In this document: positions 2,735-17,653 of the stretch, one piece after another | Layout: every line of letters starts with the position of its first letter | Numbering within the stretch: the first letter of the stretch is position 1 | From: a virus | Length of the DNA stretch: 20,298 nucleotides | Direction: 5' to 3' (one strand) | Virus record (IMG/VR): IMGVR_UViG_3300035698_002605 | Span: 1-20,298 of that record | Translations under genes and position numbers: made by a program | Notes under the pieces: generated by a model | The model's database searches: none | What the model saw: only the letters and a program-made list of their open reading frames with translations | What the model was told of the DNA's origin: nothing

Positions 2735-3694
2735 TTAACTATTTAATAATACTTGAAGGGCGAAGAAACATGCACGGAGGCCGGATCCAGGTTCGATGAG
2801 TGTTTTTGACATATGCTCCCACTCTGGAACCTTTATAATTACCATCGGTAAATACTGCTCCTTTTCCGGGTGGTTCTCGACAAGCCATTTTGGAAATTCC
2901 TGGCCCAATGCAACAAATATATTGTCCTCCTTACCAGCGTACTCACCAAGCAGTACCTTGTAATTTTTGAGGGGATCGGGCTCCGCTACTAACATTTCAT
3001 ATAAATCAATGAAGGAGTAAGATGCTCTCTTCACATCATCCATTTCAATTTCTGTTGTTCCGGAGATATGTAAACTTTGTAACTGTGAGAAGGTTTTTCG
3101 AAGGTCAGGAAAGTTTCGAGTGACAAATTCTGAAAGAACTCCCTTACCCCAGACCATCTTGAGTTTTTTACTGATTATTTTGACGCGTTTGCTGTACAAT
3201 TTTATCATCTCCAGTTCTTCTTCTGTATCAACCGGATCAAATGAAACTATTAAAAAACGTGACATTATAGCCTCAGGAATTTTATTTGTATAGTTGGTGG
3301 TTGCAATGAACCTTACATACTCATGAAATTTTTCCATTGTGGCCAATAACGCATCATAGAATCCAGCAGATGCCCCGTTAAATTCTTCCATGATTATTAC
3401 TTTGTAGGGTGCGTCCAGGTGTGTGAGGGATTTGGTCATGCAAAACTTTGTCACCTTTTCACGAACAACATCAATTTTACCCTCGGATGAGGCATTTATA
3501 TACAGTACGGGACTGTCCTTTGATAGCACCTGAGAAATTGAACTTTTACCCGTACCAGGTGAGCGTGACACGAGTAAAAGGTTCTGGCTCAATTCCCCAT
3601 TTCCAATAACTTTTGTAATTCTTTTGTTGAGAATCATCGTCTCCATGCTCTTCGGTCTAAACTTTTCCGTGAACATCATATCTTTAACTGACAT
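2735..3694 (-). CDS. 44: Sliding-clamp loader large subunit (T4 gp44-like AAA+ ATPase)
   Basis: T4 gp44 forms a tetramer that, with gp62, uses ATP to load the gp45 clamp for the viral DNA polymerase. This protein has 319 residues, the same as T4 gp44. Visible motifs are the YRP-like N-terminus TEKFRPKSMETMIL (9-22), Walker A SPGTGKSS (45-52), Walker B VIIMEEFNG (99-107), sensor 1 ATTN (131-134), the SRF equivalent of the SRC arginine-finger box (145-147), and NFPDLRKT in the lid region. T4 gp44 carries NFPDFRKT at the matching place. The Walker B box has Glu where most relatives have Asp (EE rather than DE), a conservative change. The gene stands alone here without a recognisable clamp or gp62 gene next to it. 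The start has a good AAGGAAAAG ribosome-binding site. Confidence 0.9.
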   Translation of the reverse strand: MSVKDMMFTEKFRPKSMETMILNKRITKVIGNGELSQNLLLVSRSPGTGKSSISQVLSKDSPVLYINASSEGKIDVVREKVTKFCMTKSLTHLDAPYKVIIMEEFNGASAGFYDALLATMEKFHEYVRFIATTNYTNKIPEAIMSRFLIVSFDPVDTEEELEMIKLYSKRVKIISKKLKMVWGKGVLSEFVTRNFPDLRKTFSQLQSLHISGTTEIEMDDVKRASYSFIDLYEMLVAEPDPLKNYKVLLGEYAGKEDNIFVALGQEFPKWLVENHPEKEQYLPMVIIKVPEWEHMSKTLIEPGSGLRACFFALQVLLNS

Positions 3695-3786
3695 TTCTTT
3701 TCCTTATAATTAATTAACTTTAATACTCTTCTTATACACAGGGTTTTGTGATATGCTCGTTTTCATTTTTTATCTTTTATTTATGA

Positions 3787-4092
3787 TTATTTTATTTTGC
3801 CGTCGTTGAAATCTTCATAAAAACTGAGCATATTATCAACTTGAGATTTACTTTGTTCCACATATTTCATTATTTCATCTTCAGAAATTTCCACGATTGT
3901 ATCCGTATTCGAATCTCTTACTTCCATATATGTGCTTTGGTCTGATACGATACTATGGCCGTTTGTTAATTCAATTTCAATATTAGATTCGTCTGTGTCC
4001 ATACTACCATATATGCTCATGACCTGAATGGGCTTGGCTGCGAGTTTGAACGACTTTGTTACATTTGCATCCATCTTTTTGTTTGCTTTCAA
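3787..4092 (-). CDS. Hypothetical acidic protein, 101 aa, probably lost or shifted 5' leader
   Basis: The reading frame is open from just after position 4135. Its only initiation codons are TTG at 4092 and ATG at 4074, neither with a convincing ribosome-binding site. The product has no recognised family. It has a strand-rich middle (QVMSIYGSMDTDESNIEIEL) and an acidic helical C-terminus. Directly upstream, in the other frame, lies the short leader ORF 4118-4162, which ends only because the frame is off by one base. Joining leader and body by skipping one nucleotide near 4125-4135 gives a continuous protein of about 125 residues with the same MKNFKEFKMNEG start as the gene at 4621-4854. So the annotated start may be wrong and the gene may be frameshifted, recoded or misassembled. 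Confidence 0.55.
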   Translation of the reverse strand: MKANKKMDANVTKSFKLAAKPIQVMSIYGSMDTDESNIEIELTNGHSIVSDQSTYMEVRDSNTDTIVEISEDEIMKYVEQSKSQVDNMLSFYEDFNDGKIK

Positions 4093-4117
4093 TTCTTTTG
4101 AATACTCAAGATGAAAT

Positions 4118-4162
4118 TCAACGCTTACCTTCGTTCATTTTAAATTCTTTGAAATTTTTCAT
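4118..4162 (-). pseudogene. Orphan capsid-targeting-like leader ORF (14 codons)
   Basis: ATG at 4162, preceded by AAGAGAAAAATT, encodes MKNFKEFKMNEGKR and then TGA. The first 13 residues equal the N-terminus of the 4621-4854 protein. It lies within the 79-bp repeat shared with 4816-4894. The following frame continues as the 3787-4092 protein after a one-base shift, so this is best read as the true 5' end of that gene with a disruption, rather than as a free peptide. Confidence 0.55.
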
Positions 4163-4202
4163 AATTTTTCTCTTTTTATTTTTTAACGATTGTTTTTATC
4201 TT
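4124..4202 (-). repeat. 79-bp direct repeat, copy 1 (RBS plus leader)
   Basis: Matches 4816-4894 at 78 of 79 positions (the difference is C at 4187 versus T at 4879). The unit spans the last bases of the upstream gene, the intergenic RBS segment and the first 13 leader codons. The part of the unit that codes the endolysin C-terminus at copy 2 is non-coding at copy 1, so copy 2 is likely ancestral. Confidence 0.95.
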
Positions 4203-4618
4203 ATAAATTTATATTTCTTATTTCCAACTTTTATTGCATGACTCTTTTTTACTAAAGAACTCCATAGTTTTTCACCCAACTCAGATAATTCAATTACAGG
4301 CGTTCCATTATTTAATATTCTTTCGGGAGAAGGCCTTAATGGATTTTTCGTTTGTTTGACACTAAATTCATTCATTTTAATATAAAATTGAGTGCCAATA
4401 GACTGTTGCTGAAATTCTTCAGGTATTATAGAATTTCTGATGACCCATCCATCTTTATGTTCCCAAACTGTGAACATATCTGGGCGGGAGAGATGATTAT
4501 TATCTATATCCCAAGTAGAGAAATTACCTTCAGAAGATTTGAACTTAAATATTTTTTTAAAATAAAGCTCATTAATTTTTATTTTAGCTTCATTAAGTAT
4601 TTCACTAAAAAGTTTCAT
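4196..4618 (-). CDS. GNAT-like hypothetical protein with capsid-targeting-like N-terminus
   Basis: A 140-residue protein. The first 12 residues, MKLFSEILNEAK, resemble the T4 internal-protein leader and include LNE followed by Ala, which fits the T4 gp21 protease rule (Leu or Ile, any, Glu, then Ala/Gly/Ser). Residues about 55-135 have a pattern I associate with phage GNAT-type domains: a strand with VIRNSIIPEEF, then QQSIGTQFYIKMNEF, comparable to the acetyl-CoA-binding GxGxG/A loop and helix, and a C-terminal ELGEKLWSSLVKKSHAIKVG. The loop is poor in glycine (SIGTQ), so acetyltransferase activity is doubtful. It and the next gene lie exactly between the two copies of the 79-bp repeat. Confidence 0.6.
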   Translation of the reverse strand: MKLFSEILNEAKIKINELYFKKIFKFKSSEGNFSTWDIDNNHLSRPDMFTVWEHKDGWVIRNSIIPEEFQQQSIGTQFYIKMNEFSVKQTKNPLRPSPERILNNGTPVIELSELGEKLWSSLVKKSHAIKVGNKKYKFIR

Positions 4619-4620
4619 AA

Positions 4621-4854
4621 TTATTTCTTTATTTTTTCAAAATATTGACATGCACGTCTATCCAATTCTATTACTTCATAATTTGTAGATGTATACTCAT
4701 TTGGCTGTTTTGTACAATACATTGTAACATTTCGCATACTTGTTTTCTTTTTAAGATGATATTCACAATAATAACAATACTGATTCTTTAATGTTTTATC
4801 CGGAGCAAACTCATCCTTACCTTCGTTCATTTTAAATTCTTTGAAATTTTTCAT
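4621..4854 (-). CDS. Small four-cysteine (zinc-ribbon-like) protein with leader
   Basis: A 77-residue protein starting MKNFKEFKMNEGK, the same leader as the orphan at 4118-4162 and close to the one at 19227. After the leader it has Cys27-x2-Cys30 in YCYYCEYH, Cys47 and Cys69, a spacing compatible with one bound zinc. The rest is basic. No family recognised. It starts 13 nt after the endolysin stop with AAGAGAAAAATT as the ribosome-binding segment, which is inside the 79-bp repeat. By analogy with T4 internal proteins it may be packaged in the head, but the predicted cleavage site (MNE then Gly) differs from the strict Leu/Ile rule. Confidence 0.65.
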   Translation of the reverse strand: MKNFKEFKMNEGKDEFAPDKTLKNQYCYYCEYHLKKKTSMRNVTMYCTKQPNEYTSTNYEVIELDRRACQYFEKIKK

Positions 4855-4894
4855 AATTTTTCTCTTTTTATTTTTTAATGATTGTTTTTATCTT
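4816..4894 (-). repeat. 79-bp direct repeat, copy 2 (RBS plus leader)
   Basis: Partner of 4124-4202, offset 692 bp, one mismatch. Covers the end of the glucosaminidase gene, its downstream RBS and the first leader codons of the 77-residue gene. The interval between the copies holds exactly two genes (4196-4618 and 4621-4854). Confidence 0.95.
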
Positions 4895-5512
4895 GTCCGG
4901 GAGTTTTCGTTTGTTCATTACTGTTCCATATTTTCTGGAGACTGCGTAATTACCATTCAAATATTTGATCCATTTTTGCCGGGTTCCAATTTGACGTTCC
5001 TTCTTGCATGATTGGAATAACTTGTAATCTGCTATACTATATATCCATGACCTGTAACTCGCATGGCCGAGGTGTCTGTCCGGTAATGCACAGTTCCTAC
5101 GTCTCAACGGTTTCTTCATGCCAAATACATTGTTGCCGTTCTTGGCTAATCCTGAAGTTATACTCTCCGCAATACTTGAATTGTATGCCATATTAGGATA
5201 CAGAATTTCCATGTCCATTAACGCCTGGGCCATGTTTTCTCGACTCAGTGGTTTTGGATCACTTTCAAATTCATGTATGGTGGTGACAATGTCCTCCAAT
5301 AATATGGAATCCATGTCTTGGATGTTGTTGAAATATGTTAAAATTTCACTTCTCTCGTGATTATAAATTACCTGTTCCAAACTGTCTCGCTTGCAATTGC
5401 AATCTTTTACTTGCATATTACTTGTGGAACTTCCAAGGGCATATGACGCCCAACCCACGAGAATCAAGAGGGGGACCACCCCTACCATAAACAAGTTATT
5501 TTTCACTGCCAT
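4868..5512 (-). CDS. Membrane-anchored glucosaminidase-type endolysin
   Basis: The 214-residue protein has a hydrophobic N-terminal segment (residues 8-26, MVGVVPLLILVGWASYALG) that acts as signal-anchor, then a coiled linker, then a glucosaminidase (GH73, FlgJ-like) domain at about 85-195. The domain motifs are SSIAES (112-117) with the probable catalytic Glu116, NGNNVFGMKK (125-134), and HASYRSWIYSIADYKLFQ (150-167), the usual end of this fold. It would cut the beta-1,4 bond after N-acetylglucosamine in peptidoglycan. An anchored endolysin of this sort is typically exported and held in the membrane until lysis. The gene overlaps the upstream two-TM protein by 17 nt, which supports a lysis cassette. 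The catalytic loop is a little shorter than usual, so the Glu assignment is provisional. Confidence 0.75.
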   Translation of the reverse strand: MAVKNNLFMVGVVPLLILVGWASYALGSSTSNMQVKDCNCKRDSLEQVIYNHERSEILTYFNNIQDMDSILLEDIVTTIHEFESDPKPLSRENMAQALMDMEILYPNMAYNSSIAESITSGLAKNGNNVFGMKKPLRRRNCALPDRHLGHASYRSWIYSIADYKLFQSCKKERQIGTRQKWIKYLNGNYAVSRKYGTVMNKRKLPDKIKTIIKK

Positions 5513-6020
5513 TCAAATCCTTCATTTTGTTTTCATTTAATATATTTTTAGTAGCTTCTTTTCGCATCTGGATTCTCAGTTTCCTGGCCTCCGTACTTTC
5601 CTGAATCAGTGTATCTCTTGTCGTCTCACCTTTGATTTTACGTGTCAAAGTTTTCAGAGTTGCCTCGTAATTTCTATTTTTTGTGACAATTTTTTCTACA
5701 TCTGTAATATCCTTCTCCAAGTCCTTGACCTCTTTTTTAATGGCCTTGAAGTCCTTGTTCCACGATACGGATGTTGTCTTTGCATCCTTTTTTAATGTCT
5801 TGATCTGTTTCTGTATGGTTTCAATTGTCTTCTTATGACTCATTAAAGCCGCCATGGTTTTGATATGCTTTTCATCATGGTCCTGCACTTTATATAATAA
5901 ATACCATAAAAATGTGAATGGGGCTATCATTACGATACCCCCGCTCATATCAAAAACAGAATACCAAATGTATAAACTCAATCCAAAGAATAAGCCCCCA
6001 ATGATATTAAATAGTTTCAT
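5496..6020 (-). CDS. Two-TM coiled-coil protein, lysis-associated candidate
   Basis: A 174-residue protein with two N-terminal hydrophobic helices (about residues 4-22 and 28-45) and a long charged coiled-coil region (about 50-165, many Lys and Glu in heptad-like order). Its 3' end overlaps the start of the glucosaminidase gene, and its own ATG is 3 nt after the upstream stop with AGAGG as ribosome-binding site. Position next to an endolysin and two TM helices suggest a holin or a spanin-like role, but topology alone does not settle it. It could equally be a structural membrane protein. Confidence 0.6.
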   Translation of the reverse strand: MKLFNIIGGLFFGLSLYIWYSVFDMSGGIVMIAPFTFLWYLLYKVQDHDEKHIKTMAALMSHKKTIETIQKQIKTLKKDAKTTSVSWNKDFKAIKKEVKDLEKDITDVEKIVTKNRNYEATLKTLTRKIKGETTRDTLIQESTEARKLRIQMRKEATKNILNENKMKDLNGSEK

Positions 6021-6023
6021 TTA

Positions 6024-6500
6024 CTACCTCTGTACTGGTGTTATTTGTGATTCTTTTACATATTCCCCGATATCTTCGATTCCTAAGGAATAAAGAGAAT
6101 ATAGGGGTTCGCCTTTCAACGAAACTCCCCAATGTTCCTGCACAAGAAAAACTAATCGCTGGTGTAATCCCTGGACCATTACCTTTGAACCTTTTGGATA
6201 TTTGAAATTGGCTGTGCTGGCTGTTGCAACTTCTACGATCTTTTCAACTTCAACGATCTTTTCAACTTCAACAATTTTTTCAACTTCAACAATTTTTTCA
6301 ACTTCAACTATCTTTTCAACTTCTTTTTCCACTATTTTTTCTTGGATTTCGGGCTCAACACTTTTTAAATGTTCGATATATTTTTCCGTGTCATCGAAAC
6401 CTGAATCTTCTGCCATTTTATTCAACCCTTTTATGGTTTTATCCATTTTCGTATACTCTTTTACGATGTCCGCTTTGGTCATCTTATCCGTTTTTGCCAT
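6024..6500 (-). CDS. Coiled-coil protein with EKIVEV hexapeptide repeats
   Basis: A 158-residue protein. The N-terminal 55 residues are helical and charged. Residues about 61-91 are a near-perfect run of the hexapeptide EKIVEV (five units), encoded by the 18-bp tandem repeat at 6229-6318. The C-terminal 60 residues start FKYPKGSKVMV and look like a small beta domain with LVFLVQEHWGVSL. I do not recognise the family. VEKEVEKIVEVEK runs occur as linkers or stalks in many phage and bacterial surface proteins, so the repeat is probably a helical spacer whose length can vary. AAAAAGGAAC is a good ribosome-binding site. It directly precedes the two-TM protein. Confidence 0.65.
   Translation of the reverse strand: MAKTDKMTKADIVKEYTKMDKTIKGLNKMAEDSGFDDTEKYIEHLKSVEPEIQEKIVEKEVEKIVEVEKIVEVEKIVEVEKIVEVEKIVEVATASTANFKYPKGSKVMVQGLHQRLVFLVQEHWGVSLKGEPLYSLYSLGIEDIGEYVKESQITPVQR
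6229..6318 (-). repeat. 18-bp tandem repeat, five units
   Basis: Five consecutive units of the form ACTTCAACAATTTTTTCA (plus-strand reading), starting at 6229, 6247, 6265, 6283 and 6301. Units 3 and 4 are identical and the others differ at one to three positions. A decayed sixth unit follows. It codes the hexapeptide EKIVEV, so gain or loss of units keeps the frame. Confidence 0.95.
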
Positions 6501-6533
6501 TTTACTGTTCCTTTTTTTATTTTATTATTTAAA

Positions 6534-7010
6534 TTACTTTCCTGCTGCCAACATCGATTGAATTACTGCATCCAATATATCATTTAGCCATAAATTTATT
6601 TGGGGGTCATATTGATCAATCATATTCTCAAATTCATAATCCGGATCATCTCCGTCATATTCTTCATCCTCGCTTGGATCAATATCGGGCAATACTTCTT
6701 GATTCCATGCTGTATACAAATCTTGAAATGAATTTTTATCTCGTAAAAATTTCTTGAAGAGTTTTTCGTTCTTATTTACATACGCAAATTCAATGCGTTT
6801 ATCATTACCAAAACCATTATTATACCAATCATATGCAATTCCCGTTACACATCTAAATAATTCTCCCCATGGTTTATCTTTTGATGGACCAGTCGTAGGG
6901 ATATATTCATCTTCCATCCGAGTATACTCATCTTGATATGTTCCCTCGTCATCCCAATAACCATTTCCCTTAACTTTAATTTTGCCTTCGAAAATCTTAA
7001 AATGTTTCAT
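6534..7010 (-). CDS. Acidic hypothetical protein with capsid-targeting-like leader
   Basis: A 158-residue protein beginning MKHFKIFEGK. The IFE-Gly step fits the T4 gp21 protease cleavage rule, so the first nine residues may be a removable head-targeting leader. The remainder is very acidic, especially DPSEDEEYDGDDPDYEFENM near residues 111-130, and rich in Trp and Tyr. The C-terminus is a helix (INLWLNDILDAVIQSML). No family recognised. The 5' segment, AAAAAAAGGATAAATATGAAA, is shared with the next upstream gene (7030-8316), evidence that RBS and leader were copied together. Confidence 0.65.
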   Translation of the reverse strand: MKHFKIFEGKIKVKGNGYWDDEGTYQDEYTRMEDEYIPTTGPSKDKPWGELFRCVTGIAYDWYNNGFGNDKRIEFAYVNKNEKLFKKFLRDKNSFQDLYTAWNQEVLPDIDPSEDEEYDGDDPDYEFENMIDQYDPQINLWLNDILDAVIQSMLAAGK

Positions 7011-7039
7011 ATTTATCCTTTTTTTTTATTTAAAAATCG
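7004..7039 (-). repeat. RBS/leader direct repeat, copy 1
   Basis: On the minus strand it reads CGATTTTTAAAT, then an A9 run and GGATAAATATGAAA. The same segment with A8 is at 8310-8344. It joins the last codons of one gene (Asp-Phe-stop) to the ATG of the next. Length differs by one base in the A run. Confidence 0.85.
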
Positions 7040-8316
7040 TTGGGGTCTTGAATATATGAGTCAGGTTTAGGTTTCAAGGATTTCCATATAGCGTTATTAT
7101 GCCATTTTCCTCGTTTCCATGTGCCATCCAGCCAAGTTCCTGACATGAAGTCTCCATTATACCATATTCCATTTTCCCATGTGCCATTAAAAAATTCACC
7201 TCTATACCATTCCCCGTTTTTCCAGGTACCACCTAAGAAATCTCCACGAAGCCAGATACCATCTTCCCATACACCTCCTGTGAAAGATCCAGATTTGAAA
7301 ACTAATTTACCATCCTTTTTACCAAGAACAGCTTCGTCCAAATCACAATCTAATATCCAAGGGAAATCCTTTTTAAGTTGTGGAATTGTGAGTTTATCTT
7401 GTAATTTTTCAATTCCAAATTTTTGAAAGAAAACTCTATCAGGATGGTTTTTATCTTTCGGACGTGATTTTTTCAGTTGCCAATCACCATTCTGCCAGGT
7501 TCCATCTTTCCATTTACCACCCGCGAAGGTTCCATTCTCCCAGGTTCCATCTTCCCATTCACCATTCATGAAGGTTCCATTTTTCCAGGTTCCTTGGAGC
7601 CAGGTTCCATTTTCCCAGGTCCCATTTTCCCAGGTTCCTTTGATCCAAAGGCCAGATTTCCAGGTTCCATCTTTCCAGGTTCCATCCCGCCAGGTTCCAC
7701 GGTCAAAGATTCCATTTTCAAATGTGCCGCCTTCGAAGCTTGCATGTCCGAATGTTCCATTTTTAAAAGTCCCTCCAGCCCATGTATCTTCTTCAAAGGT
7801 TCCGTCTAACCAAATGCCATCTTCCCATACAACAGATGGCTCCCTGAACGTATATTCTGCATTAATTACAGCATCTTTTATTTTTGCTGCCAATATCCAG
7901 GGATAAAATTCTTGGAGATATTTAAGAGTGAATCCACCCTTTAATTCTTTTATGCCATACTTATTTAAATTTTCTTCTCCTATGAGTGGAACCCCTATTG
8001 GCCGAACCCAAGAAATTTTGAGTAATTTTCCTTTGGCCGTTGAAAAGATTTTTCTGTTGGTTTTTATGTCATTTAATGTTCGTATAGACTCATCTAAATT
8101 TACGAATTTATCCTCGGTATTTATATTATAACCTACTATAGATTCGTTTTTGATGATAAATACCAGTCCTGTATCAAATTTAGCCAGCATATAATCGTTA
8201 AAATTTGAATCAATTTCAACGGAACTTGCCCCTACCCATTTCTTAATTTCTTCTAATCTTTTAATAATAAATTTCGGGACTGTCTTATCACCCTCAAATA
8301 TTTTAAAATATTTCAT
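7030..8316 (-). CDS. Two-block pentapeptide-like (WxxGT) repeat protein with leader
   Basis: A 428-residue protein. It starts MKYFKIFEGD, with the same IFE-Gly leader pattern as the gene downstream. Residues 164-280 and 343-409 are long runs of a five-residue unit of the form (Trp/Phe)-x-x-Gly-Thr, for example GTWENGTWENGTW, about 23 and 13 units. Each run follows a related 32-residue module: YGIKELKGGFTLKYLQEFYP (120-139, then WIL) and FGIEKLQDKLTIPQLKKDFP (300-319, then WIL), so the gene has an internal duplication. The unit differs from the classic A(D/N)Lxx pentapeptide repeat but has the same period and should form a narrow beta-solenoid. It lies directly after the portal gene, which with the leader points to a head-associated protein. 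Function is unknown. Confidence 0.75.
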   Translation of the reverse strand: MKYFKIFEGDKTVPKFIIKRLEEIKKWVGASSVEIDSNFNDYMLAKFDTGLVFIIKNESIVGYNINTEDKFVNLDESIRTLNDIKTNRKIFSTAKGKLLKISWVRPIGVPLIGEENLNKYGIKELKGGFTLKYLQEFYPWILAAKIKDAVINAEYTFREPSVVWEDGIWLDGTFEEDTWAGGTFKNGTFGHASFEGGTFENGIFDRGTWRDGTWKDGTWKSGLWIKGTWENGTWENGTWLQGTWKNGTFMNGEWEDGTWENGTFAGGKWKDGTWQNGDWQLKKSRPKDKNHPDRVFFQKFGIEKLQDKLTIPQLKKDFPWILDCDLDEAVLGKKDGKLVFKSGSFTGGVWEDGIWLRGDFLGGTWKNGEWYRGEFFNGTWENGIWYNGDFMSGTWLDGTWKRGKWHNNAIWKSLKPKPDSYIQDPNDF

Positions 8317-8344
8317 ATTTATCCTTTTTTTTATTTAAAAATCG
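8310..8344 (-). repeat. RBS/leader direct repeat, copy 2
   Basis: Second copy of the segment at 7004-7039, with A8 instead of A9. It covers the last codons of the portal gene, its stop, the AAGGAT ribosome-binding site and the first codons of the solenoid-protein gene. Confidence 0.85.
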
Positions 8345-9897
8345 CCATCATCATCTCCACCAATTGGGTGGTCTTTTTTATATTTCAACATATCCGCCCA
8401 CTGATCATCTGTCAAGCTCAAATATTGTTTTGCCGCCCATTCACGTGGAATAATTGGATTTTCATCCGCATCATCCATTAAATCTCCCATTGAGCCAACA
8501 AAGTCAAGTTCTCTCTGTAGGAATTCCATTTCTTTCAACTTCTTGTAAATGTTGTCGTCCTGGAATTTTATACCCAGATTTGATCTAAATTGTTCGTCAT
8601 CTTTTAGAAAATCAAAGTCGATACAAAGCTGTAAGTATAATGGTTTCCATAATACTTCTTGGAAGGTTGATCTCAAACGCCCAATGAACTTACTGAATCG
8701 AATTTCTTCTCTGTCCAATCCGTCGGATCCAATCATCATTTGACCTCCGCCGCCTTCTCCGTCAAATCTACTTTCAGGAACTTTTGAATCTTTTTTCAAC
8801 TTGTCCCAGAAATATTTCAAACTGTCAGTGTCATTCAAATCCGGCCCCTCACCCGCAATGGTTTCAATTTCCGGCTGTTCTCCATTTTTACTTGGGAAGA
8901 GATAGTTTTTATAAAATTGCATTGAAGGTTTTCCATTGATCAATAGTTCTCCACTATCAAAATCAAGATATATGTCCTCTTTATATAATGCCATTAATTC
9001 ATTCAAACTCTCTTTTGCCTTTTGGGGTGACTTTGTTCCAATTGGAATTACCATTTTCATTCTAAATGTAGAATTCATTAGGTTCCAGATTAGTCGAGTG
9101 TTTTCCATCAAGCGAAGCAAATTTAATGATCGTACAAGGCGTTCCAGGTAGGACACGCGCATCATTATGTTACCCTTTGCATACGATATATATATGATTT
9201 GTGCGTCATACAGAGGGGGTCTGGCCAAATTAGGACTATCCTCATACTGCATCCATACTGATTTATATCCACCCTCAGTCTCTTCTTTTTGGGGTCTCAA
9301 ACTAATTGGGTCAAGTTCTTTGAAACCAATTATATTCTTCCATTCCTCATCATAAATAATTTCAAATGCAAGGAACCCATCAATCATTAATTGACGGAAA
9401 TATTGCCATGCAGATACATCATCATTAAAATGGAAATGATTATAAATTTCCTTGTATCTCTGTTGTGCCTTCTCAATTACCTCCTTTTGAGTTTCCTCTT
9501 TCAAATGTGAACCAAGATTACTCAGATCGGGATATGCAAAGAAGTTTTGATTGTCATATACAATTGCATCATCACAAATTGTATCCAAGATCCATTCAAT
9601 TTCGCCGTTCATACTGAATTTACGAAGGAATTCCCTTCTACTTTGATAGTCTTTATCAAAGAATGCTGTATATTTTTTTTGACCGATGTCTGCCATTGAA
9701 AGAGTATACGCCATATCCTCCGGCATTGGACCATCCATACTGAACTGAGCTTCGGTAGCACCTACAGCTCTTGACTGCTTGACCACGAGATCGTCATATT
9801 TAAAACCTAAATTACTTAGGTTTTTAATCATGGAGCCGACTTGATTTAAAAATCCGACCTCGCCGTTGGCATATTTATTTAGAAAACCAGTTGCCAT
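8335..9897 (-). CDS. 20: Portal vertex protein (T4 gp20-like)
   Basis: The portal is a dodecameric ring at one capsid vertex. It nucleates head assembly, is the channel for DNA packaging and later joins the tail. This protein has 520 residues against 524 for T4 gp20. Recognisable parts are the N-terminal wing with RREFLRKFSMNGEIEWILDT, the stem and crown region SYLERLVRSLNLLRLMENTR then LIWNLMNSTFRMKMVIPIGT, which is the most conserved block of gp20 proteins, and the core segment IETIAGEGPDLNDTDSLKYF. The C-terminal tail is acidic (GGDDDGDF). It has a strong AAAAAAAGGATAAT ribosome-binding site. That site lies inside the last codons and stop of the homing-endonuclease gene, 1 nt away, so its translation depends on sequence carried by the endonuclease end. 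Confidence 0.9.
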   Translation of the reverse strand: MATGFLNKYANGEVGFLNQVGSMIKNLSNLGFKYDDLVVKQSRAVGATEAQFSMDGPMPEDMAYTLSMADIGQKKYTAFFDKDYQSRREFLRKFSMNGEIEWILDTICDDAIVYDNQNFFAYPDLSNLGSHLKEETQKEVIEKAQQRYKEIYNHFHFNDDVSAWQYFRQLMIDGFLAFEIIYDEEWKNIIGFKELDPISLRPQKEETEGGYKSVWMQYEDSPNLARPPLYDAQIIYISYAKGNIMMRVSYLERLVRSLNLLRLMENTRLIWNLMNSTFRMKMVIPIGTKSPQKAKESLNELMALYKEDIYLDFDSGELLINGKPSMQFYKNYLFPSKNGEQPEIETIAGEGPDLNDTDSLKYFWDKLKKDSKVPESRFDGEGGGGQMMIGSDGLDREEIRFSKFIGRLRSTFQEVLWKPLYLQLCIDFDFLKDDEQFRSNLGIKFQDDNIYKKLKEMEFLQRELDFVGSMGDLMDDADENPIIPREWAAKQYLSLTDDQWADMLKYKKDHPIGGDDDGDF

Positions 9898-9898
9898 A

Positions 9899-11713
9899 TT
9901 ATCCTTTTTTTATATTTAATGAATATTTTGCGTTCCCACTATTATATATCTTATTGTATCCTCTGTCATGCATAATTTCTGTTTCTGTTTTGGACGAATC
10001 GAAACCTTCTTGTATTAATTTATGCTTCATGTATTTCTGTCTCGATTCCCGTATCCCATTGACCACCCAAGAATATCCGGGGTCTGTATTTCCAATAAAT
10101 TTAAATCCATTCGTTTCATATACATTGTCTCTCGGCATTGACCAATCCAAATCGGCATATGAAAAGATCTCTGTTGGTGTATATATCTTTATAAAATATT
10201 TCAAAAGTCGACTGAAGCCGCCAACCACCGTATGATTCAATATATTTACATACCTTAGGAGTTCCATTTTCTTGTTCCTGATACCAAAGGTGGCCAGGGT
10301 GACAAGTTTATCCTCGAAGTATAGTCCAATCTTATATTTTGAATTCACGTGGCCCTGTATGTGATTTTGATCCAAGAAAGCTCTTGAAGTCTTTGAGTCA
10401 ACTTCCGATATCACACATTTTCTGGCATATATGCGAGTTGACATACCAAGAACTGCCCGAATTCTACTCTTGACAATTTCATTTTTATAATTCCAGTCGT
10501 CTTCCCAGATATGAATTAAATTGACACCCTTTTCTATTGCAAGTATTTTCTTCTTATGATGATACATTTTTTCCTTATATGCATCTGAATGCCAATACAA
10601 TCCATTAAATTCAAATCCAATTTTCTTTGATGGAATATAAATATCAATTTCCTTACCATCGAGAATTGTTCGATTGCCTTGTTCAATCTCAACTCCCAAA
10701 GATTCTATAAATACTTTCAACTCTTCTTCTTTCCATGAAAGTCCTCCATCAATTGGATTACAATGCGGACAAATTTCAACATTGTATTTATTCATTCTCT
10801 GCCACAAGAAAAATTTATTCGCCGTAAATTCTTGGTTGCAGGTGGGGCATTGTAAGGTGAATTTCCTATTCTCATATGAAATGAATTTATATCCCCGACT
10901 TTCAAAATCCGGAACAATTTCTAATGACTTCTTTCGTTGAATCTTTTTCAAAACTTCTTTACCAATGTCGGATGAAAAATAATATTCATTTCCATATTTA
11001 GTAAATGTGGTCTTCTTTTGTTTCAATCTAAATTTTAATAGTGTAGACGGATGCTCTACGCCATGAATTTGAAGGTTATTTAATTTCATCGATTCTCGAT
11101 ATGATACAGATTGCAGGGGATAATCAACGCCATAATTATGTCGACTGGTCTCCCTCTTTTTTTCTTTGACGGATTCAACTGTATTTGGACTTTTCACTCC
11201 ATAATGATCCATGCTGGTTTGTATTTTTGACAGTTTGACCTCGTCTACTTGACTGGGGTTTTCAACACCATATTTCTTGACGCATGTTAATTTATATTGG
11301 TTTCGTATTGATCCCGACTGTAGAGGATGAGGAACTCCATAATTTTTTATGCATGTTGCCTCTTTTTTTGATTGTATGGTGGGAGATTGACTGACATTTT
11401 TTGACCCATATACTTTTATGCAAGTTGACTCTGTCATTTTGTTTTTACACGAAATAGAGCCGCAAGTTGCAATATAAATCTTGTTTTTTTCAATCTTTTT
11501 GTAGGTTTGTAAAGGTTTGTTACAGAATGGACAGAGGAGGAGTTGAAGATTATCATTCCATATATGATATGCCCGTTGATATAAATGGACATTTTTATAT
11601 GCATCATCTAAAAAAGAAGTGGCATCCCGAAGTTTGTCCGGATACCCCTTCACTTTTTTTAGAAAATCTCCAAAATCAACTGACATAAGTTTTATTTGTT
11701 CTATGTCTACCAT
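9899..11713 (-). CDS. Hef-like homing endonuclease with YG repeat array and PD-(D/E)xK-like domain
   Basis: Free-standing homing endonucleases cut an allele lacking them and spread by repair. Numbered from the in-frame ATG at 11725, the protein (608 aa) has a Cys4 knuckle at C65/C68/C88/C93, then seven repeats with Tyr-Gly at exact 23-residue spacing (Gly at 107, 130, 153, 176, 199, 222, 245, consensus like KYGVENPSQS). A second CPTC...CPHC knuckle (293-322) follows, then a Vsr/PD-(D/E)xK-like core with KEIDIYIPSKKIGFEFNGLY (358-377) and WHSD, IHIWEDDW. The repeat array probably reads DNA along the target. I set the start at ATG 11713 because AAGGATAAAATGG there matches the portal start, but 11725 is possible. 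It lies directly before gene 20, a classic site for such elements, and its 3' end supplies the portal RBS. Confidence 0.8.
   Translation of the reverse strand: MVDIEQIKLMSVDFGDFLKKVKGYPDKLRDATSFLDDAYKNVHLYQRAYHIWNDNLQLLLCPFCNKPLQTYKKIEKNKIYIATCGSISCKNKMTESTCIKVYGSKNVSQSPTIQSKKEATCIKNYGVPHPLQSGSIRNQYKLTCVKKYGVENPSQVDEVKLSKIQTSMDHYGVKSPNTVESVKEKKRETSRHNYGVDYPLQSVSYRESMKLNNLQIHGVEHPSTLLKFRLKQKKTTFTKYGNEYYFSSDIGKEVLKKIQRKKSLEIVPDFESRGYKFISYENRKFTLQCPTCNQEFTANKFFLWQRMNKYNVEICPHCNPIDGGLSWKEEELKVFIESLGVEIEQGNRTILDGKEIDIYIPSKKIGFEFNGLYWHSDAYKEKMYHHKKKILAIEKGVNLIHIWEDDWNYKNEIVKSRIRAVLGMSTRIYARKCVISEVDSKTSRAFLDQNHIQGHVNSKYKIGLYFEDKLVTLATFGIRNKKMELLRYVNILNHTVVGGFSRLLKYFIKIYTPTEIFSYADLDWSMPRDNVYETNGFKFIGNTDPGYSWVVNGIRESRQKYMKHKLIQEGFDSSKTETEIMHDRGYNKIYNSGNAKYSLNIKKG
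9908..9949 (-). repeat. 42-bp direct repeat, endonuclease 3' end copy
   Basis: Codes IYNSGNAKYSLNIK near the endonuclease C-terminus. Matches 11725-11766 at 38 of 42 positions. The similarity extends through the ribosome-binding site to the next ATG in both places. Confidence 0.85.
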
Positions 11714-11721
11714 TTTATCCT

Positions 11722-11766
11722 TCATTTTATCTTTAATGTATATTTTGTGTTCCCACTGTTATATAT
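11722..11766 (-). pseudogene. Relic of a homing-endonuclease C-terminus
   Basis: Between two stop codons this stretch reads IYNSGNTKYTLKIK then TGA, nearly the same as IYNSGNAKYSLNIK at the C-terminus of the adjacent endonuclease. Nothing upstream continues the frame. It is best explained as the remains of an earlier or related endonuclease copy, kept because it contains the ribosome-binding site for the following gene. A simple local duplication is the alternative. Confidence 0.6.
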
Positions 11767-11807: not shown

Positions 11808-12224
11808 TTAAAATAATCGTTTCGAAATTAATTTATTGGAACCTCTTGGACACCATTTTATAAAATCCCATGTAAGTGCATCATGACATATAAATTGTTC
11901 ATTTAGAATATCTTTGGCTTTGGGATGATATTTTACTGGTATTTCATTCAGTAGACGTTCGTGTGCCTCTTTTATGTTATCTTCCATTAGATCAACACCC
12001 CAAAGAGTTTGGATGGCTTGTAGAGGATTGTGGCCATGAGATAGTTTCCTTTTGAGGATTTCAAGGACTATGTTTCCATTACCTGCGGCAGGATCACAGA
12101 AGGTTTTATTTGGTTCCCATACAGACGGAGGTAACTTATCCAATATTTCATTTGTGAGCTCGGGGGGTGTGAATACTTCCGCCGTTATATGTTTCCTTTG
12201 GGATCTTATTTGGTCATTTGTCAT
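11808..12224 (-). CDS. Short adenine-specific methyltransferase-like protein (motif I half)
   Basis: 138 residues from ATG 12224 (a TTG at 12233 is also possible). It begins with the N6-adenine methylase signature TAEVFTPPELTNEILDKLP, then motif I, the SAM-binding CDPAAGNGNIVLEIL, and acidic GVDLMEDN, then a segment ending DALTWDFIKWCPRG. The catalytic motif IV (NPPY) is absent, so the protein cannot be a complete methylase. Phages often carry orphans of this sort. It corresponds to residues about 769-850 of the 1186-residue enzyme (IMTPWKLINEIFDKLP, CDPAVKSGIF) but is clearly diverged from it. The gene overlaps the end of the second TRD cassette by 11 nt, so both are probably translated from one message. 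It may pair with a cassette product, or be a decayed methylase. Downstream lies the endonuclease relic. Confidence 0.7.
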   Translation of the reverse strand: MTNDQIRSQRKHITAEVFTPPELTNEILDKLPPSVWEPNKTFCDPAAGNGNIVLEILKRKLSHGHNPLQAIQTLWGVDLMEDNIKEAHERLLNEIPVKYHPKAKDILNEQFICHDALTWDFIKWCPRGSNKLISKRLF

Positions 12225-13197
12225 TGTTTTCAATGTAATTTATTTCTTCTTCTGTTAGCTTAAAATGAGTGTATAGGTCTTCGTCTGTCCAGCTGCGAGT
12301 GAGGTCCATAAGTGGGACGTATTTGAAGACGGGGGATCTAAAAGTTCTACCGACCTGTTTTAATAATCTGAGTGTGGTTGCAAATTTTGTTGTTAAATAC
12401 ATTTTACAATTTATAGCTTCAATTTCTGTATCAAATGGAAAATAACATACAGATTCGGATGTTAAAAACTTGGGTGGAATGGTTTTTAATGCTGAAAATT
12501 CCTTCGCCTCGTTTCCTGTCCCCCCTTGTCCAAAAGATGTTTTCCATTTATCAAATTGAAATTTACCTATATTAATTTCATTTTTATTGACGTATTTTAC
12601 ATTATCGACCAATCCCGCTCCCATGACTGAATATTTTTGTTTCCCATTAATACATTCTAATTTATTTTTAAATATTGATGTTCCTATACTTGCTGGGTGT
12701 TTAAAAGATTTCTTCATCATTGTATATCCATCAATTTTGGATATTATATTTATCATTAAATCACTTTCAATGAAATTTGGATTTTCAATTGGATTTATAT
12801 TAAATATTTTATCATTCACTTCGTAATTGATGTCACCTATGTAATCTTTATCTGAAATAAAATAACAAACTCCTCCACTAACAGATACATCTGGGAAATG
12901 ATTACCCACATCACTCCCTGTTTTAATATATGAGATATGTTCATTTAAAAACTGATCTTTGAATTTAAAATATTTATCTGTTTTGTTCCAACTGAATGGA
13001 ATAATCATTGTGCATATATGTTTCGAAATGTCAAAGCCTAACCTCACAAATTTATCATATAAAATTTTACCGCAACTTCCATTTTTCATTGGAACTGTAT
13101 ACGGTGGATTCCCAACAACGACATCAAATTTTGGCATATCCTCTAATTTCCTCTCCAATATATTTATTTTTGAATCAATGTTCACAAATCCCGGCAA
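12214..13197 (-). CDS. Methyltransferase motif IV/TRD cassette 2
   Basis: 327 residues from TTG at 13197, without a clear ribosome-binding site. It begins LPGFVNIDSKINILERKLED and has motif IV VVVGNPPYTVP (27-36). It continues with the Eco57I-like core (LYDKFVRLGFDISKHICTMI, VSGGVCYFI), a variable central part that should be the target-recognition domain, and the common end PLMDLTRSWTDEDLYTHF. It is colinear with residues 852-1180 of the 1186-residue enzyme. Ends are nearly identical and the middle is diverged. It lacks the SAM-binding motif I, so it cannot methylate alone. Frame and repeats allow it to replace the TRD of the large protein by recombination. It overlaps cassette 1 by 16 nt. 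It may be a silent donor, or be made as a separate subunit. Confidence 0.75.
   Translation of the reverse strand: MPGFVNIDSKINILERKLEDMPKFDVVVGNPPYTVPMKNGSCGKILYDKFVRLGFDISKHICTMIIPFSWNKTDKYFKFKDQFLNEHISYIKTGSDVGNHFPDVSVSGGVCYFISDKDYIGDINYEVNDKIFNINPIENPNFIESDLMINIISKIDGYTMMKKSFKHPASIGTSIFKNKLECINGKQKYSVMGAGLVDNVKYVNKNEINIGKFQFDKWKTSFGQGGTGNEAKEFSALKTIPPKFLTSESVCYFPFDTEIEAINCKMYLTTKFATTLRLLKQVGRTFRSPVFKYVPLMDLTRSWTDEDLYTHFKLTEEEINYIENNDK
12231..12302 (-). repeat. TRD cassette 3' repeat, copy in cassette 2
   Basis: 72 bp coding the C-terminal SWTDEDLYTHFKLTEEEINY segment. Differs from the cassette 1 copy (13205-13276) at one position and more from the copy in the full-length gene. Confidence 0.9.
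13103..13197 (-). repeat. TRD cassette 5' repeat, copy in cassette 2
   Basis: 95 bp identical at every position to 15006-15100 inside the full-length gene. It runs from TTGCCGGG to the codons of the NPP catalytic motif. Confidence 0.97.
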
Positions 13198-14108
13198 CTC
13201 ATCTCAATGTAATTTATTTCTTCTTCTGTTAGATTAAAATGAGTGTATAGGTCTTCGTCTGTCCAGCTGCGAGTGAAATCTAATTCCGGCAATCTATTAA
13301 ATTCATTTACCAAAAATCTCCCATTATAATTAATTGAATTAAAATAAAATGAGCATAGTTTTGATTTAATAAAACATTTTACAGACTCAGCTTCTTGTTG
13401 TGAGCCACAAACCTTGAATAAATTATTTTGATTGATCCCACAATTTTTATCAATAATAATGAAATTAGGAGTATAAAACAACGATACGATCACTTTAATA
13501 TCTTTATAATGTGGAGGTTCTATATCCAAATTAATTATTGATTTTCCATTATAACACCTATATTTCCCATTTTCTACTTGGTGTTGTTTTCTATAGGCTC
13601 CATTGACTTTTTGAGAGTACAAAAAGTCAATGGAGCCTTTTCTACATAATAATTTATTTAATATGGAATTTCCAATTTTAAAATTATTATATAATGGTAT
13701 GAAATTAAAATTTAATTCCGACGGCTCATTGTTAATTATTGATTTCCCATTGTTTGGTATATTGTTTTTTAAAATGAAATAACAAAATGTTGACCCTATT
13801 TGTGGGAAATATTTTTTAACATCTGTATTAATTTCCGTCATGTAAGGTTTTAAATATGTTTTAAAAATATTTTTTGTATTACTGAACCATGTATTTGGGG
13901 TAATCAATGTTATAATGCCAGTGTCTTTTACAATTTTGGTACTCAATATTATAAATTGACTCCATAATGTATTATGGTTTCCCAAGGATCGCCCATTCTT
14001 TGTATTTTGATACGGCGGATTCCCAACAACTACATCAAATTTTGGCATATCTTTTAATTCCCTCTCCAATATATTTATTTTTGAATCCATGTTCACAAAT
14101 CCCGGCAA
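13182..14108 (-). CDS. Methyltransferase motif IV/TRD cassette 1
   Basis: 308 residues from TTG at 14108, which overlaps the end of the 1186-residue gene by 16 nt in another frame. No good ribosome-binding site precedes it. It starts LPGFVNMDSKINILERELKD, carries motif IV VVVGNPPYQNT (27-37), then a methylase core with GIITLITPNTWFSNTKNIFK and FCYFIL, then a variable half. It ends with DFTRSWTDEDLYTHFNLTEE and the same MSCRDL tail as the large protein, because the next cassette is joined at the same point. Between the repeats it is much less like the large enzyme than cassette 2 is, which suggests a different DNA target. Motif I is absent. A perfect 19-bp inverted repeat (13595-13638) lies in its middle. 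Probably a silent donor or a coupled subunit. Confidence 0.75.
   Translation of the reverse strand: MPGFVNMDSKINILERELKDMPKFDVVVGNPPYQNTKNGRSLGNHNTLWSQFIILSTKIVKDTGIITLITPNTWFSNTKNIFKTYLKPYMTEINTDVKKYFPQIGSTFCYFILKNNIPNNGKSIINNEPSELNFNFIPLYNNFKIGNSILNKLLCRKGSIDFLYSQKVNGAYRKQHQVENGKYRCYNGKSIINLDIEPPHYKDIKVIVSLFYTPNFIIIDKNCGINQNNLFKVCGSQQEAESVKCFIKSKLCSFYFNSINYNGRFLVNEFNRLPELDFTRSWTDEDLYTHFNLTEEEINYIEMSCRDL
13205..13276 (-). repeat. TRD cassette 3' repeat, copy in cassette 1
   Basis: 72 bp, one mismatch to 12231-12302. Followed directly by the next cassette's 5' repeat starting at TTGCCGGG. Confidence 0.9.
13595..13638 (-). repeat. Perfect 19-bp inverted repeat inside cassette 1
   Basis: Arms 13595-13613 (AGGCTCCATTGACTTTTTG) and 13620-13638 are exact reverse complements around a 6-nt loop AGAGTA. 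Within the gene it codes KGSIDFLYSQKVNGAYR, so it does not break the frame. As RNA it would be a very stable hairpin that could hinder translation. As DNA it resembles a recombinase or small hairpin-element site. No U tract of terminator length follows. Confidence 0.9.
14014..14108 (-). repeat. TRD cassette 5' repeat, copy in cassette 1
   Basis: 95 bp, six mismatches to the identical pair at 13103-13197 and 15006-15100. Same boundary at TTGCCGGG. Confidence 0.95.
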
Positions 14109-17100
14109 CTCATCTCAATGTAATTTATTTCTTCGGGTGTTAGATTAAAATGTTCGTAGAGGTCTTCGTCGGTCCAAGGGCGAGTGAGGTCCATAAGAGG
14201 AACATATTTGAACGCAAGTGACGGAAATGTATAACTATCTTGTGCCAAATACCTTAATAATGTTGAGAATTTGGTTGTTAAATACTGCTTACAATTAATC
14301 GCTTCCGTTTCCGTATCAAACGGAAAATACGAAATAGACATGGTTGTTATATTTAATGGTTTTATTAATTTTAGGGAGACTAAATATCGAGTTATATTTT
14401 TTTTGATGGAACCTATTGTTATTTCAGAGGCAGTTCCCCCTCTTGTGAACCCACATTTCCATTTATCCAAATCATATCTCGATAAGGTAACTTTATTTTT
14501 ATCAATATGCTTCAATTTTTTATTTAAGCCTGGTCCTTCGACGGGTATTGAATTTTTAAATTCAGAATCCGATAAATCTTTAAATATGTTAGATTTTATG
14601 TTTTGTGGATTTTTATACAACTCCGACATTTTAGGAGATTTAGACATTTTATCTAAAATATTTATAACTTCACTATCAATCGTTATAATATTATAATCAT
14701 TGCCAATTGATAAATTGCCGTTAATGTATAAATTTTTATTGACATTTACATTGGTTATATAATAACAAACTCCTGCTGATATATTAACACTATCGAAAAA
14801 AGACTGTTTATTTGTATAAACTTCTCTTAAACCATTTTTAATTAAATGATTTCTAAAATTTACCATTGAGCCTTGATTAAATAACCAACTTTGTGGAACA
14901 ACCATACATGAAATATTATTTGTTATATCTAATCCCAGATTCATAAATTTGTCATATAACTTTCCCGTTTTCATATTTTTGTTTTTCCCTCGTGGCGTGT
15001 TATAAGGTGGATTCCCAACAACGACATCAAATTTTGGCATATCCTCTAATTTCCTCTCCAATATATTTATTTTTGAATCAATGTTCACAAATCCCGGCAA
15101 ACATTTCTTTGTCAATAACTCGGCCTGTTTGCTGGTTGTATACCCATATAAACACTCCTTTGTTATATACTTATATATATCATTTTCACTTTTGTTTCCT
15201 CTATATGCTTCCATCAATCGGATTACAATTTCTACTAAAAATATACCACTTTTGACCGCAGGATCACAGAATGTTTTTTTCACATCCCATATATTTTTCG
15301 GTAATTTATCGAATATTTCATTTATTAATTTCCAGGGCGTCATGATTTCTTGATTGCTCGTTGGATTTAAATATCCCAATAATGATCTCATTTCTTTCAG
15401 GCATTCCAATATTCCCATGCCCTCCATTTTTGGCATGCTACTATAAAAACTTTCCAGGGCCTTGTTCAACCGATCTTTATTTATTAATCCACTTTTCAAT
15501 ATCTTCCCAAATTCCTCTGGTTCAATTCCAATTATAAGTTCAAATATTTTAATCTCCTCTGTACCCCCCAATTCTTGCCAATTTAAATATTCATCATCTG
15601 CAAGGAATAAAAATGTTGGTAAGTTCATTGTGAATCCCCTGACGGCATCCAATATATTTTTTATCTCTTTTTTATCTCTTACTGGAGTCTCGCCTCCTCC
15701 TCCGTCAGTCTTCTTCTTGTTTTTTCCTTTTTTGGTCCCACTGTCGGAAATTTCAACATCCCCCAATGCTCCATTTTTACCACCATTGGATTTCTTCAAA
15801 ATATCCAATATATCATCTTCTAAATTAAATTTCAGAGATAATATCCAATCACTTCCAAATCTTCTTATGTTGCGATTTGCATTTGCCCCAATCGATACAA
15901 TCTCTTTTAAAATATCTTCTGTACTCTTTTCAATTAATTGACCCCCGGAATATGACAAAACACTCATACAATCTAAAAATTCAGATAATCCATTTTTTAT
16001 CGAGTTGCCTTTTTTGGTGGCCTCCATTGCATAATCATAGGTCATTTTCAAGGCTCGTTGAGGATTAAAATCAAAAATATAACACTCTTTCTTCCCTACT
16101 TTTTTATTTGATGTTTTTACACGAAACGCAGTTTGCCAATAATCTTGAACACTTTCCACATCAGATAAGAAAAATACAGATCCCCACTCCGGAATACTTA
16201 CACCTGTATTCAATTTTCCACAGCTCAATGTAATTGTTCCAATTTTACCTTTATATTTTCCAATTTGATTGTCAACCCCGGATATTGCCCTCTTCACATT
16301 ACCAAGGGTATCTTTTCCCAGTCCATCATTTTTACCAGCGGCAATTATAATTTCATAGTCCTTAAAATAATTGTGATCGTTCAATACTTTTTTCATGGAG
16401 GTAATCTCTTTTACCCCACTCATGTACCAGAATGTATGTTTCAAGTATTTATTGTCAATATTAATGTTAAATGGACTTTTCATCCTCCTTGGTTCTGTAC
16501 TGGCCAAATTATTTAAAAACTTATCAACAGAACTTCTATTTATAAATTTATCGTTTTTCACTCCGAAAAATTTATTCATTGTTAGATATTCATCATCACT
16601 GTAATATTTTACATTTTCCCAAACTTCATCCGAAACTTTAAATGTATACAAATTAATTCTTGGTAGCCATCTATAAATGGAATTTCCAGTTTGCTTTTTG
16701 CGTTGCTCATCAATATATGACCAGCTGTAAATTTGTTCGTCTTCGTAATATCCGGAGGTTTTTAAATGAATTGGGGTTCCTGACAAATCCAGCCTTTTTT
16801 TGTAATTCAGTTTCCCTAAAAATTCTTGGGGACGGATGTTGCCAAATCCATAATGAACTTCATCAACAATTACAAAATCAAAATCAATTTGTAATAATTT
16901 TTCAAATTTCTCTTTTGGTTGGCCATTAATTTTGGTTCCTAAAATATCTTGAAATGATGAAAATATTACAACTTTTTCATTTTTTAATTTTTTTTGCTGT
17001 TCCTTGTCATTTAATTTTAATCCGTCCACAAAAAAATATTCGGGGAAATTTATATGATCCAGAAGTTCATTTTTCCATTCCTCTTTTATTGCAGGCTTGT

Positions 17101-17653
17101 ATGTCAATATCAATACTTTTTTAGCATCCAACTTTTTCATTAATTGATACGTTGTAAATGTTTTCCCGAATCTCATTATTGCATCAAATAAAAAAGTATC
17201 TCCATCCACAAAATAATTATATGCTTGGTTGACAGCATCCTCTTGTTCAGGTCTCATTTTAAAATTATTTTTCCTATTGACCCCATTTATAATTTCATTG
17301 TATGCACAACTTATATCGGAAAGTGAACATTCAAACCACTCTCTTGATACATTAATCCTATATGGAGATAATTTTTTGTGGATGGCGTGTTCTAATTTAA
17401 AACATAGTTCATTTCCTCCATAACTATCCTCGGATGATAAATTCTGGATCTTGTTCTTGTTCTGTTCTGTGATTGGGAAAACGTCTAAAATTTTGAAGGG
17501 TTTGTAATTGGAGGTGGTGTGCTGTTCTGAAATTCGTTCACATATATTACCAGTAGCCCCTCCTATTTTTAACCCAGGGGAGCCCTCCTTCATGTAAACA
17601 TATACGCCATTTGAATATTCACTGTATTCGTCTTTGTTGATTATCTTTTCCAT
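14093..17653 (-). CDS. Single-chain restriction-modification-like enzyme: GIY-YIG nuclease, SF2 helicase, Eco57I-type N6-adenine methylase, TRD
   Basis: 1186 residues. Residues 16-110 are a T5orf172/GIY-YIG-type nuclease domain: GVYVYM (16-21), LKIGGAT (28-34), Arg40, KLEHAIHKKL with Glu88, and EWFEC (105-109). Residues 134-535 are an SF2 helicase/translocase: AIMRFGKT (158-165, motif I), DEVH (264-267, motif II), SGTP (291-294, motif III), and LNTGVSIPEWG plus QDYWQTAFRV (motifs V and VI). A Lys- and Gly-rich hinge (640-656) precedes the methylase: MTPWKLINEIFDKLP (771-785), motif I CDPAVKSGIF (796-805), motif IV GNPPY (880-884), then a Eco57I-like core and the variable TRD up to about 1110. 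The C-terminal block is PLMDLTRPWTDEDLYEHF. It should methylate adenine at one site and translocate on and cut DNA lacking the mark. The last residues, MSCRDL, run into the next cassette. The ATG at 17653 has only a weak ribosome-binding site. Confidence 0.85.
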   Translation of the reverse strand: MEKIINKDEYSEYSNGVYVYMKEGSPGLKIGGATGNICERISEQHTTSNYKPFKILDVFPITEQNKNKIQNLSSEDSYGGNELCFKLEHAIHKKLSPYRINVSREWFECSLSDISCAYNEIINGVNRKNNFKMRPEQEDAVNQAYNYFVDGDTFLFDAIMRFGKTFTTYQLMKKLDAKKVLILTYKPAIKEEWKNELLDHINFPEYFFVDGLKLNDKEQQKKLKNEKVVIFSSFQDILGTKINGQPKEKFEKLLQIDFDFVIVDEVHYGFGNIRPQEFLGKLNYKKRLDLSGTPIHLKTSGYYEDEQIYSWSYIDEQRKKQTGNSIYRWLPRINLYTFKVSDEVWENVKYYSDDEYLTMNKFFGVKNDKFINRSSVDKFLNNLASTEPRRMKSPFNINIDNKYLKHTFWYMSGVKEITSMKKVLNDHNYFKDYEIIIAAGKNDGLGKDTLGNVKRAISGVDNQIGKYKGKIGTITLSCGKLNTGVSIPEWGSVFFLSDVESVQDYWQTAFRVKTSNKKVGKKECYIFDFNPQRALKMTYDYAMEATKKGNSIKNGLSEFLDCMSVLSYSGGQLIEKSTEDILKEIVSIGANANRNIRRFGSDWILSLKFNLEDDILDILKKSNGGKNGALGDVEISDSGTKKGKNKKKTDGGGGETPVRDKKEIKNILDAVRGFTMNLPTFLFLADDEYLNWQELGGTEEIKIFELIIGIEPEEFGKILKSGLINKDRLNKALESFYSSMPKMEGMGILECLKEMRSLLGYLNPTSNQEIMTPWKLINEIFDKLPKNIWDVKKTFCDPAVKSGIFLVEIVIRLMEAYRGNKSENDIYKYITKECLYGYTTSKQAELLTKKCLPGFVNIDSKINILERKLEDMPKFDVVVGNPPYNTPRGKNKNMKTGKLYDKFMNLGLDITNNISCMVVPQSWLFNQGSMVNFRNHLIKNGLREVYTNKQSFFDSVNISAGVCYYITNVNVNKNLYINGNLSIGNDYNIITIDSEVINILDKMSKSPKMSELYKNPQNIKSNIFKDLSDSEFKNSIPVEGPGLNKKLKHIDKNKVTLSRYDLDKWKCGFTRGGTASEITIGSIKKNITRYLVSLKLIKPLNITTMSISYFPFDTETEAINCKQYLTTKFSTLLRYLAQDSYTFPSLAFKYVPLMDLTRPWTDEDLYEHFNLTPEEINYIEMSCRDL
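14116..14187 (-). repeat. TRD cassette 3' repeat, copy in the full-length gene
   Basis: 72 bp homologous to 13205-13276 and 12231-12302 but with several substitutions (for example GGGTGT for TTCTGT). Codes PWTDEDLYEHFNLTPEEINY. Confidence 0.85.
15006..15100 (-). repeat. TRD cassette 5' repeat, copy in the full-length gene
   Basis: 95 bp identical to 13103-13197. Here it is internal, coding residues 852-883 of the enzyme. The sequence upstream of TTGCCGGG (Lys-Lys-Cys codons) differs from that before the cassette copies, so this point marks the breakpoint of the repeat unit. Confidence 0.97.

Follow-up and report, generated by a model that had tools for sequence, protein, structure and literature searches.

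A tandem array of exchangeable specificity modules, probably expressed as subunits of a split adenine methylase, in a T4-like phage

A phage gene for a single-chain restriction-modification (R-M) enzyme that is followed by two partial copies of its own C-terminal part raises a simple question: are the partial copies spare parts for the large gene, or are they genes in their own right? The window that we have analysed is an entire virus record (IMG/VR IMGVR_UViG_3300035698_002605; 20,298 bases), and all features of the array are located on its minus strand. The gene content of the record (a gp20-type portal, a clamp loader and head closure) is that of a T4-like phage, and its portal is closest to the portals of huge phages (the best match is a 462-kb uncultured phage, with 49% identity, and other huge phages follow, including Lak phages), so that the record is probably a fragment of the genome of a huge T4-like phage. 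The first-pass annotation of this DNA had described a full-length enzyme, followed by two copies that hold only the catalytic motif IV, the target-recognition domain (TRD) and the C-terminus; this anatomy is present as described (Table 1), but a third partner, the free methylase N-half P4 at the end of the array, had been left out.

Table 1. Positions of the units of the array, of their repeats and of P4 in the window.
Feature	Position	Strand	Description
Unit A, full-length R-M gene	14093-17653	-	1,186 aa; GIY-YIG/helicase/Eco57I-methylase
Cassette B ORF	13182-14108	-	308 aa from TTG; probable translated part 13182-14048, from the ATG at codon 21
Cassette C ORF	12214-13197	-	327 aa from TTG; probable translated part 12214-13137, from the ATG at codon 21
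P4	11808-12224	-	free methylase N-half; motifs X, I (FCDPAAGNGN), II and III; without motif IV
5' repeat, unit A copy	15006-15100	-	95 bp; contains a possible internal SD and ATG (15040)
5' repeat, cassette B copy	14014-14108	-	95 bp; 6 mismatches
5' repeat, cassette C copy	13103-13197	-	95 bp; identical to the unit A copy
3' repeat, unit A copy	14115-14188	-	74 bp
3' repeat, cassette B copy	13204-13277	-	74 bp
3' repeat, cassette C copy	12230-12303	-	74 bp; 2 mismatches to B, 12 to A

The full-length protein, which we refer to as “unit A”, starts with a GIY-YIG domain (aa 17-119; T5orf172/MUG113), followed by a ResIII/SF2 helicase (aa 131-295 and beyond), by a methylase N-half, by the NPPY motif IV (aa 881-884), and then by the TRD and the C-terminus; a sequence search of the PDB has found no solved structure that matches the protein as a whole. 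Cassettes B and C consist of motif IV, TRD and C-terminus only, and both ORFs open at TTGCCGGG, with a TTG codon at the identical point, as had been noted before. All three units match PF07669 (Eco57I-type N6-adenine methylase) above the family cut-off, with the NPPY motif IV present; the SAM-binding motif I occurs in unit A as a variant that departs from the usual form (DPAVKSGIF) and in P4 as DPAAGNGN, and is absent from the cassettes. No nonsense mutations occur in the cassettes, and their TRD cores, diverged yet open, keep the conserved columns. The cassette C protein, modelled from the ATG at codon 21 (mean pLDDT 83, with 54 sequences; a version with 12 sequences was poor, with a pLDDT of 54), resembles CamA, BrxX/PglX and M.TaqI, and in the model it corresponds to a TRD together with the C-half of an N6A methylase of the gamma class. 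The three units have been correctly described as being in direct orientation, but they share a frame only relative to the repeats: in genome terms, the three ORFs occupy three different frames. The TRD coding part of cassette B also contains a near-perfect inverted repeat (13595-13638), a potential hairpin.

Alignment has confirmed the 5' repeat, as well as the 3' repeat around variable cores, with the latter taken as 74 bp in this analysis and having 12 differences between unit A and each cassette, and two between the cassettes. Near their 5' ends, the units share a nucleotide identity of 0.94-1.0, and near their 3' ends one of 0.76-0.90; in the core, it is mostly 0.27-0.69, with the exception of one A/C stretch of 0.80 near the 3' end; judged by these values, the similarity of the repeats around unrelated cores is far beyond chance. 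By the same alignment, cassette C is a mosaic, with a 5' end like that of A and a 3' end like that of B, because its 5' repeat is identical to the copy in A, while its 3' repeat is nearest to the copy in B.

Close relatives of the locus have been found neither by searching viral contigs with the full-length protein or cassette C as single queries, nor by a scan for the exact pattern of the 5' repeat, and blastn with the cassette region has given no matches among phage records. TRD swaps, for which a comparison of related phages had been proposed, have been found between related phages; the compared relatives are metagenome-derived, and any single case may be a misassembly at repeats. Loci L099 and L100 have no mismatches across 12,935 bases upstream and 3,083 bases downstream, and their sole difference is a 3.6-kb deletion between 344-bp direct repeats: L099 (a 16-kb metagenome contig, where misassembly at the repeat is possible) goes on with what L100 has after its second repeat copy, so that the same methylase N-part is followed by another TRD, with the crossover located within the last ~182 identical bases, spanning ATG-KFDIVVGNPPY. 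In L283 and L291, with flanks that are 93-95% identical, the TRD differs from just after NPPY, and the second unit is missing from L291. In Lak-A2 and Lak-C1, most flanks are 98.9% identical, and the TRD segments differ.

The Lak phages have inverted TRD copies beside the enzyme, and the C-terminus of Lak-A2 is more similar to the inverted copy of Lak-B1 than to the copy in the same orientation, a pattern that fits an inversion. In L011-L014 (Lak-A2, C1, B2 and B1), the inverted copies adjoin the GIY-YIG/helicase/methylase gene, or its replacement at this locus; the flanks of Lak-B1 and Lak-B2 are 97-99.7% identical, and the R-M module between them differs.

Across 35 unit pairs from 11 phage arrays, the mean nucleotide identity is 0.85 over the 30 bases that precede NPPY, remains at 0.83 across the NPPY codons themselves, and falls to 0.35, 0.29, 0.28 and 0.29 in the successive windows after NPPY; this cliff is in part the reflection of a conserved protein segment, and in several arrays the repeat runs far upstream of the conserved motif-IV protein segment. 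These comparisons support the recombination of modules among related phages, and modules can probably be swapped into the large gene as well.

P4 is located directly behind cassette C, with an overlap of 11 nt, its ATG at 12224 lying inside the end of cassette C. Its homologues in many phages and bacteria share its C-terminal end point; because they end at the same place, P4 is not a fragment, and we have rejected its interpretation as a truncated gene. Fusions of TRD and P4 occur (L083, L086, L114, L118 and L145). Since some P4-linked systems already contain a complete methylase, P4 may have another role than completing one. In the bacterial contigs (L139-L218), the gene order P4, methylase, GIY-YIG-helicase-like gene is widespread, and the methylase has an ATG (or GTG) at its motif IV.

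The cassettes have an in-frame ATG at codon 21 (MPKFDVVVGNPPY), which is preceded by GAGG in unit A and cassette C, and by a weaker sequence in B; in the cassettes this putative SD stands at a short distance from the ATG. The earlier statement that the cassettes have no clear RBS holds for the TTG, while the codon-21 ATG has its GAGG in A and C and a weak SD in B. Stand-alone TRD proteins of phages begin with M(P)KFD...NPPY, i.e. at codon 21 of cassettes B and C, and their genes are common in phages, where they often overlap their neighbours and adjoin a free N-half methylase.

After de-duplication, the set comprised 53 methylase ORFs of phages that have a P4 nearby; 52 of them have an ATG within about three codons of the motif-IV start point, and the SD complementarity at this ATG has a mean of -5.1 kcal/mol, compared with -1.4 kcal/mol for other in-frame ATGs (Mann-Whitney p = 4e-14, for sequences that are related and not independent). 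Bacterial P4-linked methylases have an ATG at motif IV in 58/61 cases, with a GTG in the remaining three, and an SD excess over other in-frame ATGs (p = 3e-8, again for related sequences that are not independent). In the combined count, the motif-IV start is found in 98/105 methylases with P4 and in 3/11 Eco57I-type methylases that were taken, as controls, from loci without P4 in the same genomes; the control, at 11 methylases, is small, and the loci are related, so that the counts and p-values overstate the independent evidence. The conserved Met before motif IV may also be partly a constraint on the protein.

Because the stand-alone TRD genes start at this same ATG, and the P4-linked methylases keep it, the cassettes are probably not silent; that they are expressed separately, in trans, is no less likely than a silent store, and a free C-half, made from the internal start, may pair with P4. 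As for the ORF overlap, inspection by eye has found no classical slippery heptamer in it, while a GTG overlaps the upstream stop (GTGA), and for this reason re-initiation seems likelier than programmed frameshifting.

The reading that we favour, and consider reasonably probable on the sequence evidence, is that of an R-M system, carried by the phage, in which the specificity modules of a split methylase form a tandem array and are both expressed and exchangeable. Each module would be the C-half of an adenine methylase, comprising motif IV, the TRD and a short tail at the C-terminus; one of the modules would be fused to the GIY-YIG/helicase/N-half enzyme, and two more would be present as overlapping genes, translated from the ATG just before NPPY, with products that would complete an active methylase with P4 and would be directed to different DNA targets. 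Since all modules have the same ends, homologous recombination could put another module in place of the fused one, or change the number and the order of the modules, in this phage as in its relatives, and a replacement would give the large enzyme a new sequence to recognise.

The first-pass annotation had proposed that recombination across the repeats would give the large protein a new TRD, with the cassettes as its store: the modules do appear interchangeable at the point that it named, but the cassettes are probably not a silent store. Untranslated cassettes, serving only as recombination donors to the full-length gene, would account for the fusion of unit A alone to the helicase and nuclease, for the TTG openings without an SD, and for the mosaic ends and the recombination that is seen in relatives; they would leave unexplained the long intact ORFs with their in-frame codon-21 ATG, the stand-alone homologues that start exactly there, as overlapping genes, in many phages, and the presence of P4 next to the cassettes. 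We regard this alternative as unlikely, and a purely silent store as less likely than expressed, exchangeable subunits.

The layout recurs in other viruses. Our census has found 15 distinct viral loci with at least two adjacent motif-IV/TRD ORFs, the present array included: L117 repeats the order of the array (fused enzyme, free TRD, P4), L062 and L249 have two free TRDs beside P4, L097 has the same in reverse order, and L280 has five tandem methylase units (3311-9817), mostly direct repeats of 84-92%, followed by P4. The arrangement TRD-TRD-P4 and split gene pairs of TRD and P4 are widespread and, together with the known TRD-P4 fusions, agree with a second alternative, in which the extra units would be separate subunits only, providing with P4 stable extra specificities against several host enzymes, and the repeats would be leftovers of duplication. 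The identical 5' repeat of A and C beside unrelated cores, the mosaic ends, and the modules that have been exchanged or lost between near-identical relatives make this improbable as the full account. A recent duplication followed by decay, or an assembly artefact, with the extra units as functionless debris, is very improbable: the record is a single metagenomic contig, with close relatives not found in the viral-contig searches, but the cassettes are free of nonsense mutations, with diverged TRD cores that remain open and keep conserved columns, the layout recurs (e.g. in L117 and L249), and mismatches distinguish the repeat copies from each other.

The favoured reading, a tandem array of expressed and exchangeable modules, may be part of a wider R-M design in phages and bacteria, which we propose tentatively: one gene would give rise to a complete enzyme and also to a free TRD subunit, starting at motif IV, for a separate N-half, and a tandem TRD store, cut at that same point, would be shuffled by recombination, so that phages could rapidly diversify their methylation and restriction specificity.

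Several known systems have parts of this arrangement. Type IIG and Type ISP enzymes are single-chain R-M enzymes with a nuclease, an SF2 helicase, a gamma-class methylase and a TRD; unit A likewise combines all four in a single polypeptide, but in place of the Mrr-like nuclease of Type ISP it has a GIY-YIG N-terminus, and it is accompanied by a free N-half (P4) and by extra TRD modules. In gene conversion of the pilE/pilS type, the pilS donor copies are not expressed; homologous flanks, a variable core and partial copies occur here too, and the sequence of the cassettes suggests that they may be translated. Phase-variable hsdS loci of Type I systems (SpnD39III among others) recombine spare TRD-bearing copies (PMC7394358, PMC4948785): they are similar to the present array, as read here, in their spare TRD copies, and in an exchange at conserved segments that changes specificity, but the module here is an Eco57I-like methylase C-half and not HsdS, the repeats are direct and not inverted, and the carrier is a huge phage. 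The inverting hsdS loci, with their inverted copies, are in this respect like the Lak phages and unlike this array; no site-specific recombinase has been recognised among the larger proteins that were scanned in the 20,298-base record, a probable genome fragment.

In Helicobacter pylori, TRDs move between alleles or positions at conserved flanks (domain movement; PMC3077401, PMC3983042), within or between specificity genes, whereas here a tandem array adjoins its recipient in one phage genome. The multispecific C5-methyltransferases of Bacillus phages carry several TRDs for several DNA targets (PMC12707154), and are thus also a case of phages with several TRDs, but those are cytosine-C5 enzymes in one polypeptide, while the present ones are of the adenine type (NPPY), in separate ORFs that each have motif IV. 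Lastly, an in-frame internal start in the McrB gene yields a shorter C-terminal protein, McrBs, a regulatory form of the GTPase (PMC12707154); the predicted internal-start product here is a methylase C-half with its TRD. A limited search of the open-access literature has found no description of the present arrangement.

Bacterial Type I systems were already known to switch their specificity by exchanging TRDs, and a few Bacillus phages to have fixed enzymes with several TRDs; if the reading proposed here is true, viruses also vary the specificity of their own R-M systems, either to protect themselves or to attack competing DNA, which suggests a general route for viruses to alter which DNA sequences they mark or attack. 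With motif IV being the module border and apparently also the start codon, module exchange would be frame-safe, and this motif-IV rule offers a testable explanation for many split methylase genes in large phages, as well as a guide for finding more.

Two further genes of the window have been observed outside the array: a homing-endonuclease-like protein of 608 aa (9899-11725, minus strand; phrog_3339, E 6.6e-129; DUF7487) is located between P4 and the portal gene, and a QueC-like queuosine biosynthesis gene (phrog_1550) is located at 1025-1675, also on the minus strand.
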